NCBI GenBank assembly: GCA_017508505.1
Contig: JAFVYT010000189.1
Span: 1-6,609, forward strand
Length of the DNA stretch: 6,609 nt
Direction of reading: 5' to 3'
DNA from: Clostridia bacterium
Lineage (GTDB): Bacteria; Bacillota_A; Clostridia; Oscillospirales; SIG627
Under the pieces are notes generated by a model. The model was not told the DNA's origin. It did no database searches and worked only from the letters and a program-made list of their open reading frames with translations. The translations under genes and the position numbers were made by a program. This document shows positions 4,685-6,609 of this stretch, one piece after another. Within the stretch, counting starts at the first letter, position 1, and every line of letters starts with the position of its first letter.

Positions 4685-5488
4685 ATGGAAGCCTTTTTGA
4701 AGCATCTGGCCCAAACGAAAAAGAGCGCGACCCTCGCCTCCTACCGTAGAGATTTGGAGCGGATGCGGGCGCATTTTGCTCCTCGTGCCCTTTGGGAGGT
4801 GGATGAGGAGAGCCTTCGGGGGTATTTTGCTTCTCTTTCTCACCGTCTCGCCCCCAATTCCTTTTCTCGCGCCCTTTGCGTGGCGCGACGGTATTACCGC
4901 TTTTTGGAGGAGGAGGGACGGATTGCCTCCTCTCCCGTCTCTGCGTTTCGTGCCACTCTTTTTCGGACAAAGGAGCCTTCCCTTTTGACCGACGAGGAGA
5001 TGGATCTGCTGCTTTCTGCACCCGCTCACGGGATCCGAGGAAAGCGAGACGCGGCGATGATTGCCCTTTTGTGCGAAACGGGGATGCAGGCCTCGGAGCT
5101 TGTGGGGATGGATCGGACGGATCTTTGTCCCTTGCGCTCCTCGGTTCTTTGCGGCCTCGGGGAAAGGCGACGGGAAATCCCCGTTTCCTCCGAGACCATG
5201 GCTTTGCTGGAAACCAGCCTTGCCCTTTCCACCCTTCAATATCCCGATTCCGAGGCGCTTTTCCACGGCAAAACGGGAAAGAGGATGACCCGTCAGGGCT
5301 TTTGGAAAAATCTGAAGGAGCGGGCGATCCGTCTTGGGATCTACCCTTGTACGCCTCAGCTTCTCCGTCTTTCCTTTGCACGGCGCTGTCTTTACGACGG
5401 CAAAAAGAGGGCAGAGGTCAGGACGCTTTTGGGAAATCGGAGCGATGCGCTCCTGAGGGAATATGAAAAACAGAAAAAAGGAATTTAG
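4685..5488 (+). CDS. XerD-type tyrosine recombinase homologue lacking most catalytic residues
   Basis: The 267-residue protein has a SAM-like N-terminal core-binding domain (about 1-90) and a C-terminal catalytic fold (about 100-265) that aligns with XerD, for example ETGMQASELVGM, MTRQGFWKNL and LRLSFARRCL. XerC/XerD resolve chromosome dimers at dif using Arg-Lys-His-Arg-His-Tyr. Here the first Arg is Gln135, the strand-turn Lys region reads GLGER (Leu158), the His of HxxR is Gln225, and the His of LLGH is Asn251; only Arg228 and Tyr260 remain. Spacing between the aligned C-terminal positions (225, 228, 251, 260) equals that in E. coli XerD (244, 247, 270, 279), so the alignment is firm. It is about 30 residues shorter than E. 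coli XerD. Cleavage activity is unlikely; a DNA-binding or partner role is inferred. AAAGGAG at 4671-4677 is 7 bases from the ATG. Context with the SpoIIM-like gene suggests a positional xerD. Confidence 0.85.
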   Translation: MEAFLKHLAQTKKSATLASYRRDLERMRAHFAPRALWEVDEESLRGYFASLSHRLAPNSFSRALCVARRYYRFLEEEGRIASSPVSAFRATLFRTKEPSLLTDEEMDLLLSAPAHGIRGKRDAAMIALLCETGMQASELVGMDRTDLCPLRSSVLCGLGERRREIPVSSETMALLETSLALSTLQYPDSEALFHGKTGKRMTRQGFWKNLKERAIRLGIYPCTPQLLRLSFARRCLYDGKKRAEVRTLLGNRSDALLREYEKQKKGI

Positions 5489-5490
5489 GA

Positions 5491-6447
5491 ATGGGATTGT
5501 TTAATTCGTACGTCAAGCCCGGTAAGGGCGTATAGAAGGAAGACGTTTCCAAGGTCTTCGGCTTTAAGCGCTTTTTTGTCACCCTGGGGGACAAGTTCTG
5601 GCAGCTAGTGTCCTTGAACCTTTTGTTCTTTTTGGTCAATCTTCCGGTGTTTGCTCTGTTTGCCCGCCTTGCCACCGTGGGCGGAACCCCCTATCAGGCT
5701 CCCGTCAACATCCTTGACCAGCCTCTTCGGGGAATCCTTTTGCATACGGGAGAAACACCCCTGAGTCAGATGCTTTCCGGGACAATCGGGGTTCAGTTGA
5801 CCCATAAGGCACCGACCCTTACGACCCATATTCTTTTGGGAATCGGCCTTCTGACCCTTCTGACCTTCGGCATCGGTACCGCAGCCATGACCTACATTCA
5901 GCGCAACTTCGTGCGGAGCGAGCCCACGGACCTTTCCTCGGACTTTTTTTCCTGCATCAAGCGCAATTGGAAAAATGCGATGGTTTTGGGGCTGGTGGAC
6001 GTTTTCTTTCTCTTCGTCATTTGCTTTGACCTGTTCAGCTACGTGTATGCGGTGCAGAGCTTCGGCTTTTTGCTCCTCTTGTATCTGACCTTCTTCCTAT
6101 CGGTCATCTACCTTGTGATGCGTCCCTATATGTACCTGATGACCGTGACCTTTGATATCAAATTGACCAAGATCATCAAAAACGCCTGGATCCTTGCGAT
6201 CTCGGGGATCTGGCGGAATCTGTTCTGCGGCGTCTTTGCCCTTCTGGTGATTGTTTTAAATATGGTTACCTTTGCGATGATCCCCTCCCTCGGAGTGGTG
6301 ATGCTTTTTGTGTTCACGGTTTCCTTTGCTTGGTTTTTCCAGATCTACGGCGCTTGGCCCGTGGTTAAAAAGCATATGATCGATCCTTATTACGAGGAAG
6401 CCGATACGGAAAGGGAAGAGGAAGCCGTCTTCCTCGACCGTGGTTAA
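5491..6447 (+). pseudogene. DUF624/YesL-like membrane protein gene interrupted by an amber codon
   Basis: An ATG at 5491, two bases after the xerD-like stop and 8 bases after AAGGA (5478-5482), opens a frame reading MGLFNSYVKPGKGV, then TAG at 5533-5535, then KEDVSKVFGFKRFFVTLGDK and on without a stop to TAA at 6445-6447. The product would be 318 residues if the amber were sense. The peptide before the stop and the one after it both fit the DUF624 start (MGLF..Y.KPGKGV-x-K..), so the frame is genuine. DUF624 proteins are polytopic membrane proteins of unclear function, often near sugar transporters. About six hydrophobic spans are seen (near residues 42-60, 114-136, 163-184, 189-210, 239-261, 264-285), with GIGTAAMTYIQRNFVR (127-142) as a family-like block. 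A GTG at 5608 could restart but lacks a well-placed ribosome binding site. The rest of the frame is intact, so the lesion is recent, an error, or suppressed. Confidence 0.75.
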
Positions 6448-6471
6448 AAACGAAAAAAGAAACCCGATTTA

Positions 6472-6503
6472 GTAGGTTGAGCTTAGGGATAAACTCAACC
6501 TAC
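6472..6503 (+). repeat. Hairpin 1 of a tandem hairpin array
   Basis: Arms GTAGGTTGAG (6472-6481) and CTCAACCTAC (6494-6503) pair perfectly over 10 bp. After one mismatch the stem extends by TTA/TAA, leaving a GGGA tetraloop. No T tract follows, so it is not a standard terminator, although it lies 24 bases past the DUF624 stop. It is joined to hairpin 2 by AATGAA rather than by GAA. Confidence 0.75.
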
Positions 6504-6509
6504 AATGAA

Positions 6510-6593
6510 ATCAATTTGCAAAGCAAATTGATGAAATACGACTGACGTCGTATGAAATAGGCGTTGCCTATGAAATATTTTCTCCGAAAATAT
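6510..6593 (+). repeat. Array of four perfect hairpins joined by GAA, ahead of a gene start
   Basis: Four stem-loops follow one another: 6510-6532 (10-bp stem ATCAATTTGC/GCAAATTGAT, loop AAA), 6536-6553 (7-bp stem ATACGAC/GTCGTAT, loop TGAC), 6557-6571 (6-bp stem ATAGGC/GCCTAT, loop GTT) and 6575-6593 (8-bp stem ATATTTTC/GAAAATAT, loop TCC). Every stem begins and ends with AT, every stem is perfectly paired, and each neighbour is separated by exactly GAA. The stem sequences differ from one another, so structure and linker are constant while sequence is not. The array ends one base before the ribosome binding site of the next gene. It may be a structured leader RNA or the flank of a small mobile cassette. 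Confidence 0.8.
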
Positions 6594-6594
6594 T

Positions 6595-6608
6595 AAGGAA
6601 TAAAAATG
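6595..6608 (+). promoter_or_regulatory. Ribosome binding site and ATG of a gene cut by the right edge
   Basis: AAGGA (6595-6599) is followed after 6 bases by ATG (6606-6608), and the window ends one base later. The spacing is ideal, and the preceding hairpin array stops just before the site, so the array would form the 5' leader of this gene. The product cannot be seen. From memory, not from the window, I associate similar hairpin-rich leaders in clostridia with small four-helix-bundle (23S intervening-sequence-type) proteins; this is a weak guess. Confidence 0.55.
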
Positions 6609-6609
6609 A

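Follow-up and report, generated by a model that had tools for sequence, protein, structure and literature searches.

What kind of sequence strings perfect hairpins together with a constant three-base linker and stops just short of an apparent start codon? Such an array lies at the 3' end of the stretch of DNA analysed here (6,609 nucleotides of the Clostridia bacterium contig JAFVYT010000189.1; hereafter the window), and a structured leader RNA and the edge of a mobile cassette were among the readings first proposed for it.

According to Pfam, the minus-strand frames of the window encode a NERD-domain protein and MurC. Its plus-strand frames encode SpoVG, a protein with a weak YfjL-like match, a product with no Pfam match, a XerD-like protein of the phage integrase family and a DUF624 protein; counted from the last base of the DUF624 frame, the array starts 25 bases on. 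The XerD-like protein (4685-5488) apparently lacks several of the residues that are catalytic in tyrosine recombinases (judged by eye, from unaligned motifs, at ETGMQASEL, TPQLLRLSF and LGN). At the opposite end of the window, a frame tail ending in EYEDPFAK (3-122), for which there was no Pfam match, resembles, again by eye, the end of an IS200-type transposase, and several strong hairpins follow it (119-260). The DUF624 frame begins at the ATG at 5491, and its codon 15 (5533-5535) is an in-frame TAG. Ten aligned relatives have K, Q, R or H at this position, and beyond it the frame is intact and collinear with theirs; a nonsense change, a sequencing error or recoding would each account for the TAG. 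The nearest relative of this protein among 391 genomes of one class was 36% identical.

The array and its recurrence

Five hairpins were located on the plus strand within positions 6472-6593. The first (6472..6503) is the left terminal hairpin, which has 13 pairs around one internal mismatch and a GGGA loop. It is followed by the linker word AATGAA (6504..6509), which together with the next AT is complementary to a mirror word, ATTTCATT, in the right arm of full copies. The other four are perfect stems of 10 bp (6510..6532, loop AAA), 7 bp (6536..6553, loop TGAC), 6 bp (6557..6571, loop GTT) and 8 bp (6575..6593, loop TCC), joined by GAA at 6533..6535, 6554..6556 and 6572..6574. Direct reading and folding confirmed, base by base, the number of hairpins and the stem lengths, loops, AT ends and linkers originally described for the last four. 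Upstream, a run of A followed by AAACCCGAT (6452..6467) is a candidate left arm of a host terminator, judging from the paired flanks of relatives; the element would occupy the loop of this terminator, and the matching right arm would be found past 6609. Downstream are TAAGGAATAAAA (6594..6605) and the final four bases of the window, ATGA (6606..6609).

The array folds with an energy of -46.0 kcal/mol, compared with a mean of -19.3 for shuffled sequences (z -9.3), and none of 200 shuffles folded as well. A detector that requires at least three hairpins joined by one identical 3-nt linker returned the array with four hairpins. It returned nothing from 308,890 bases of mononucleotide-shuffled loci or from 1000 dinucleotide shuffles of 6451-6609, and one array, of three hairpins, when the entire window was dinucleotide-shuffled 100 times (660,900 bases). 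A chain score that disregards linkers was 35.9 for the array, 25.8 for the second-best chain in the window and about 23 for the top of 20 mononucleotide shuffles. A chance origin was ruled out by the shuffles, mono- and dinucleotide alike, as the original prediction had held. It was also right that this is no CRISPR array: a test for direct repeats found only the 8-9 nt repeats formed by the links, rather than direct repeats with spacers.

The linked-hairpin architecture recurs in related genomes. A pattern scan of the named genomes returned at least 119 stretches, some of which are simple tandem repeats in other phyla that were left uncounted by a parser requiring hairpins joined by GAA in one arm and by TTC in the other. 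This parser recognised 78 mirror elements among the listed loci (L001-L127), the commonest form among them having three hairpins, a core of about 20 bases and four further hairpins. A pattern scan of viral contigs gave eight loci; by eye this type of array is present in L003 only, and the remainder have the appearance of AT-rich or tandem repeats.

Close copies of the window's array are found in genome G001, a Clostridia MAG from roe-deer colon, which contains five long copies plus fragments, and further copies are present in G491, G488 and G119. Two of the G001 copies match the window at 6443-6609 (L082, 89%) and 6447-6609 (L084, 92%), and beyond the point where the window ends these close copies continue with a central palindrome and then a right arm with inverse links. 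A full copy in this subfamily is about 200-310 bp long and comprises, in order, a terminal hairpin with a GGGA loop, the linker word, an arm of hairpins linked by GAA or GAT, TAAGGA, the central palindrome (in G001, GATCCGTTGC..GCAACGGATC; each strand has a T run here), the inverse-linked arm, the mirror linker word and a terminal hairpin around TAATCCCTTA. Both ends are hairpins with a GGGA loop on one strand, and their stems are unlike each other. The joint between left arm and palindrome, TAAGGAATAAAA in the window, has TAAGGA in all nine aligned copies; the copies compared for the palindrome and its ATG were chosen by this motif, so that all of them have it. No reading frame was seen in copies of the window's subfamily.

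Aligned with these copies, the window ends inside the element: the central palindrome, which in relatives reads ATGATCCGTTGC..GCAACGGATCATTTTT, is cut off after four bases. The array is the left part only, and the right half of the window copy would be like that of its relatives. On both strands the fold of a full copy is much stronger than those of shuffled sequences (z -14.4 and -19.1), and each strand of a complete copy forms one tree, closed by the terminator stem and the linker words. The centre is described as terminator-like from its reading and lies outside the calls of the terminator scan: for the G001:C39 copy the scan listed three terminator-like sites, one being the element's right flank, and the central palindrome was absent from this list, its stem exceeding the limits of the scan or its T run beginning within the stem.

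Nine copies were aligned to the window's structure, with the shorter L198 copy left out, and 97.9% of the 378 alignment cells pair. Two-sided changes were found at 7 pairs, in 15 cells, compared with means of 3.3 and 3.9 in shuffles that ignore relatedness and with 0 to 2 for slid partners. They fall in hairpin 2 (3 of 10 pairs), hairpin 3 (3 of 7) and hairpin 4 (1 of 6). Hairpin 1 is nearly invariant in the copies that have it and the core pairs of hairpin 5 are invariant in all nine, and these two hairpins therefore say little about covariation; the count of further pair types was not above shuffles (289 of 500). The proposal that the constant part is the architecture was sustained; it recurs in related genomes, and the stems covary. 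The linkers have moved from GAA to GAT, for the most part as a set. The G119 and G488 copies have GAT links throughout, with ATC in the mirror arm; the links in the window, G001 and G491 are mostly GAA, the exceptions being one GAT (G001:C82 and G491:C14, at the link equivalent to 6572..6574) and one TTA (G001:C19 and C82, at that equivalent to 6533..6535).

When the window was compared with all Rfam families, RF01706 (Gut-1) was matched at 6503..6581 on the plus strand over the full model (1-77), with 49.5 bits and an E value of 9.5e-8. As the gathering score of 50 was missed by half a bit, the window's array is a close relative of Gut-1. That score is exceeded within the window's subfamily in G001, by the two arms of L082 (62.5 and 53.1 bits). 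At 7 of the 13 loci scanned (L013, L019, L053, L071, L082, L087 and L127) both arms of one element exceed it on opposite strands, and at the other six a single arm does so. Because the two arms of an element each match Gut-1, one on either strand, the curated Gut-1 family corresponds to a single arm, or half an element. In a sample of one class, 44 of 245 genomes had a Gut-1 match at E <= 0.001 and 30 were above the gathering score, with at most 18 reported matches per genome; 14 control genomes gave one match, in E. coli, which was below the cut-off. In the relevant passages of its description, Gut-1 is listed from human gut only (PMC2864571).

Terminator loops as the site of insertion

The sequence AAGGA followed by ATG at 6595-6608 had been read as a ribosome binding site and start codon, and would suit a structured leader RNA for a gene starting at 6606. 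However, in the copies that continue past this point the ATG belongs to the 5' arm of the central palindrome (six of six copies in G001 and G491) or is missing, the palindrome having other letters (four of four in G119 and G488), and positions 6594..6605 are now seen as the conserved joint described above. A leader RNA is also unlikely because the copies lie 3' of genes. Four copies have a frame of 90 codons or more on each side, and three of them (L191, L197 and L198; not L196) are flanked by convergent frames, the longer frame being taken where frames on opposite strands overlap. The ATG is not a start codon, and the leader reading was rejected.

Empty sites were found at two loci, for relatives of the window copy. 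At the G001:C39 locus, the relative G494 is without the element, its flanks being 80% and 78% identical over about 1.8 kb each, and has the intact terminator AAAAAATCCACCC-GTTC-GGGTGGATTTT; G491 has a different terminator at this locus and no element. At the G119:C26 locus, G488 and G004 are without the element and have the terminator AAAAAATCCGACTG-ACAA-CAGTCGGATTTTTT and the same with the loop ATCA. As relatives keep an intact intrinsic terminator without the element at both loci, the element is mobile, and these empty sites place it inside a terminator loop in two independent cases. Loss of the element from these relatives, instead of a gain, is a less likely alternative.

Paired flanks were also seen at G001:C19 (7 contiguous pairs) and G488:C23 (13), and in a copy divided between G001:C121 and C87 the flanks form 5 contiguous pairs followed by a one-base gap; one G001:C82 copy shows poor flank pairing, and other copies are missing an end. 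No target duplication longer than about 3 bases was seen at the two empty-site loci, the flanks being ~18-33% diverged among relatives. The left flank of the window copy, AAAAAAGAAACCCGAT, looks like the left arm of a host terminator, which suggests that the window copy also sits in one. The original statement that the array is not a terminator holds for the array itself, but misses that close copies lie inside terminator loops and enclose a terminator-like palindrome.

The best explanation for these observations, and one held with considerable confidence, is that the window contains the left-hand portion of a mobile element of the Gut-1 kind, one that is non-coding, mirror-symmetric and composed of multiple hairpins and that inserts into terminator loops. 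Such an element would enter the loop of intrinsic transcription terminators in gut Clostridia, leaving the host terminator stem at the base of the insert and itself supplying the central palindrome with a T run on both strands. Insertion would do little harm because the host stem is kept and the element brings its own palindrome with T runs, and it is presumably this retention of the stem that makes loop insertion tolerable. A trans-acting protein may recognise the pattern of hairpins and linkers in a folded single strand, and the array could also be one that binds protein through its shape and spacing, as was originally suggested among other readings. The element is probably selfish rather than host-serving.

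Sister elements beside tRNA and IVP genes

Relatives that share this plan and are distinct from the window copy (hereafter sister elements) were surveyed among the 78 parsed elements, of which 14 lie less than 200 bases from a locus edge and were set aside. In the listed loci, a tRNA gene faces the element within 150 bases in 38 of the 64 that were scored, and a gene of the IVP family (23S_rRNA_IVP, PF05635, TIGR02436; a four-helix bundle) reads away from it in 22. Both are present in 20, always on opposite sides, and neither in 24. IVP genes are present in all nine array-carrying genomes; several follow a tRNA gene and a hairpin element whose linker word is a different one, and some have no tRNA gene or array nearby. 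Of 196 genomes sampled from the class, 64 have an IVP match. Among 88 IVP loci of that sample, comprising the 28 best and 60 more taken in the order listed (92 domains), a same-strand tRNA gene lies 155-403 bases upstream of 25 domains and none lies within 1000 bases of the other 67; the expectation for random genes is about 0.5%, a rough figure that assumes 60 tRNA genes per 2 Mb. An IVP match was found in 29 of 35 Gut-1-positive genomes and 34 of about 160 Gut-1-negative genomes (Fisher p ~1e-11, uncorrected for relatedness; counted by eye for handles to about G430, with sample nesting taken from the handle numbers).

The IVP gene is often followed closely by another. In the array loci, 25 of the 38 IVP genes examined have a frame of at least 45 codons next to them, at -30 to +40 bases; by a stricter rule, the count in the class sample was 7 of 92. 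Ten of the following genes comprised DUF4279, nucleotidyltransferase, HAD hydrolase, AAA, NUDIX, short-chain dehydrogenase and HNH genes and three without a match. Tandem units behind a single tRNA gene were found at L071 and L119. The gene behind the IVP gene of L127 has a match of 94% DNA identity in G004, near a contig end and with unmatched flanks, and the tRNA-Arg locus of L127 spans about 3.1 kb, compared with about 360 bases in the relative G214. The relative G155 offers no empty site at the L119 locus, where a different, decayed array follows its tRNA gene. Related DUF4279-type genes follow IVP genes located behind arrays at L071 (4458-4865, where the domain was confirmed) and L177 (1061-1468), and these two loci differ in the linker words of their arrays and in their tRNA genes.

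An exact copy of the tRNA 3' end, 12-21 bases long and ending in CCA, was found within 5 kb downstream of 9 of the 110 tRNA genes in the listed loci; the longest was 12 bases in the upstream control and 11 in shuffles. Only two of these repeats enclose an array within 1 kb, at L032 (a 705-base unit of array and gene) and at L073 (an array, with no gene noticed). Six others are short inserts without an array or a noticed gene, and that at L113 is about 4 kb away. At L108, L069, L061, L268, L265 and L119 (tRNA-Lys), inserts of ~125-190 bases extend from the tRNA gene to the exact 3'-end copy and have at their centre, by eye, the T-arm sequence repeated in inverted orientation. At L445 (G488:C5:6200-7400), a tRNA-Trp gene is followed by two GATAT arrays split by a ~46-base copy of the tRNA 3' part, also by eye, so that this repeat too encloses an array. 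The two GATAT elements at L438 and L440 (G119) have visibly similar right-flank stretches of ~100 bases in inverted orientation, which suggests a second repeat beside the elements.

The proposal that the array is the edge of a mobile cassette was close to the truth, because the element is mobile and sister elements head tRNA-linked gene units; the window array itself is, by its close relatives, half of an element. No mobilising transposase was identified. Given the parallel with rRNA intervening sequences, the IVP protein is a candidate component of the mobilising machinery; no IVP gene was seen beside a copy of the window's subfamily. IVP proteins are relatives of the Avd subunit of diversity-generating retroelements, and the sole solved relative found by sequence is 2rld, an uncharacterised protein. 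Linker words are specific to subfamilies (GAAAT, GATAT, TGATGC, TGATGT, GAAGT and others). A speculative extension, to which only a low probability is given, is that Gut-1-type mirror arrays, tRNA-anchored IVP cassettes and rRNA intervening sequences are one mobile class that targets hairpins of structured RNA, with the linker words as a recognition code and the IVP protein in the machine, possibly with a reverse transcriptase. The targets of such a class would be rRNA tetraloops (known), terminator tetraloops (the non-coding window subfamily) and tRNA 3' ends (the cassettes).

Competing explanations and known systems

Gut-1 is listed, in passages of PMC2864571, as a certain RNA that is not cis-regulatory, and on that published reading the array could be a structured non-coding RNA that serves the host, for example as an sRNA or a 3' stability element, and was spread by recombination. 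Its covarying stems and strong folding are what such an RNA would be expected to show. However, folding is good on both strands and the two arms give Gut-1 matches on opposite strands, which marks neither strand as the RNA, and presence at the same site differs between relatives. A host RNA is consequently considered improbable, although the two readings are only partly exclusive, since a mobile element may also be transcribed. Still less probable is a REP/REPIN-like palindrome moved by a Y1 (IS200/RAYT) transposase. The element is palindromic, dispersed and non-coding, and the window has the IS200-like tail noted by eye at 3-122; REP sequences begin with GTAG, and so does the left terminal hairpin. 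Against this, GTAG is present at the left end only, the tail is without a Pfam match, and no match to Y1_Tnp (PF01797) was found in the carriers G001 and G119, both draft genomes that may be incomplete. One such match each was found in G491 and G494, and weak matches only in G488 and G004. The case for a Y1/RAYT mobiliser is weakened by these results.

Taken as a mobile element that inserts into terminator loops, the array gives the unexplained Rfam family Gut-1 a concrete nature, as half of such an element, and names the loop of the intrinsic terminator as a target, one that is not described in the literature passages covered. It also links the IVP/S23 family to tRNA-anchored units with varied genes in gut Clostridia.

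The element resembles several known systems and is distinct from each. For Gut-1, window positions 6503-6581 fit the full model and both arms of relatives exceed the gathering score; however, curated Gut-1 is one 77-nt arm, whereas the element is inserted DNA with two inverse arms, terminal hairpins and a central palindrome. REP/REPIN sequences with their RAYT are likewise dispersed palindromes, with GTAG as at the left terminal hairpin, but the element is much larger and the Y1 transposase was not found in two carrier genomes. MITEs and the pneumococcal BOX, RUP and SPRITE repeats (PMC10969869, PMC3049150) are small, non-coding, intergenic, strongly folding and dispersed, and the element shares with MITEs the empty sites seen in relatives. 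It differs in its arms, in which perfect hairpins unrelated to one another are strung together by a constant linker, in its terminator-loop target, and in that neither a target duplication nor a parent insertion sequence was recognised for it.

The intervening sequences of 23S rRNA replace tetraloops, have a strong fold of their own and may encode an S23/IVP frame, as described in passages of PMC4990558. The element similarly enters the small loop of a structured hairpin, as found at the two loci with empty-site relatives of the window copy, and sister elements adjoin genes of the same family (PF05635). Its target is, however, the loop of an intergenic terminator rather than a helix of 23S rRNA, and the window's subfamily has no S23/IVP frame. 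Finally, the sister elements are reminiscent of integron cassettes in that they head units made up of a promoter, in many cases an IVP gene, and a gene that varies, and some of these units are in tandem; unlike those cassettes, they have tRNA genes as their anchors, and in some of them the tRNA 3' end is repeated.
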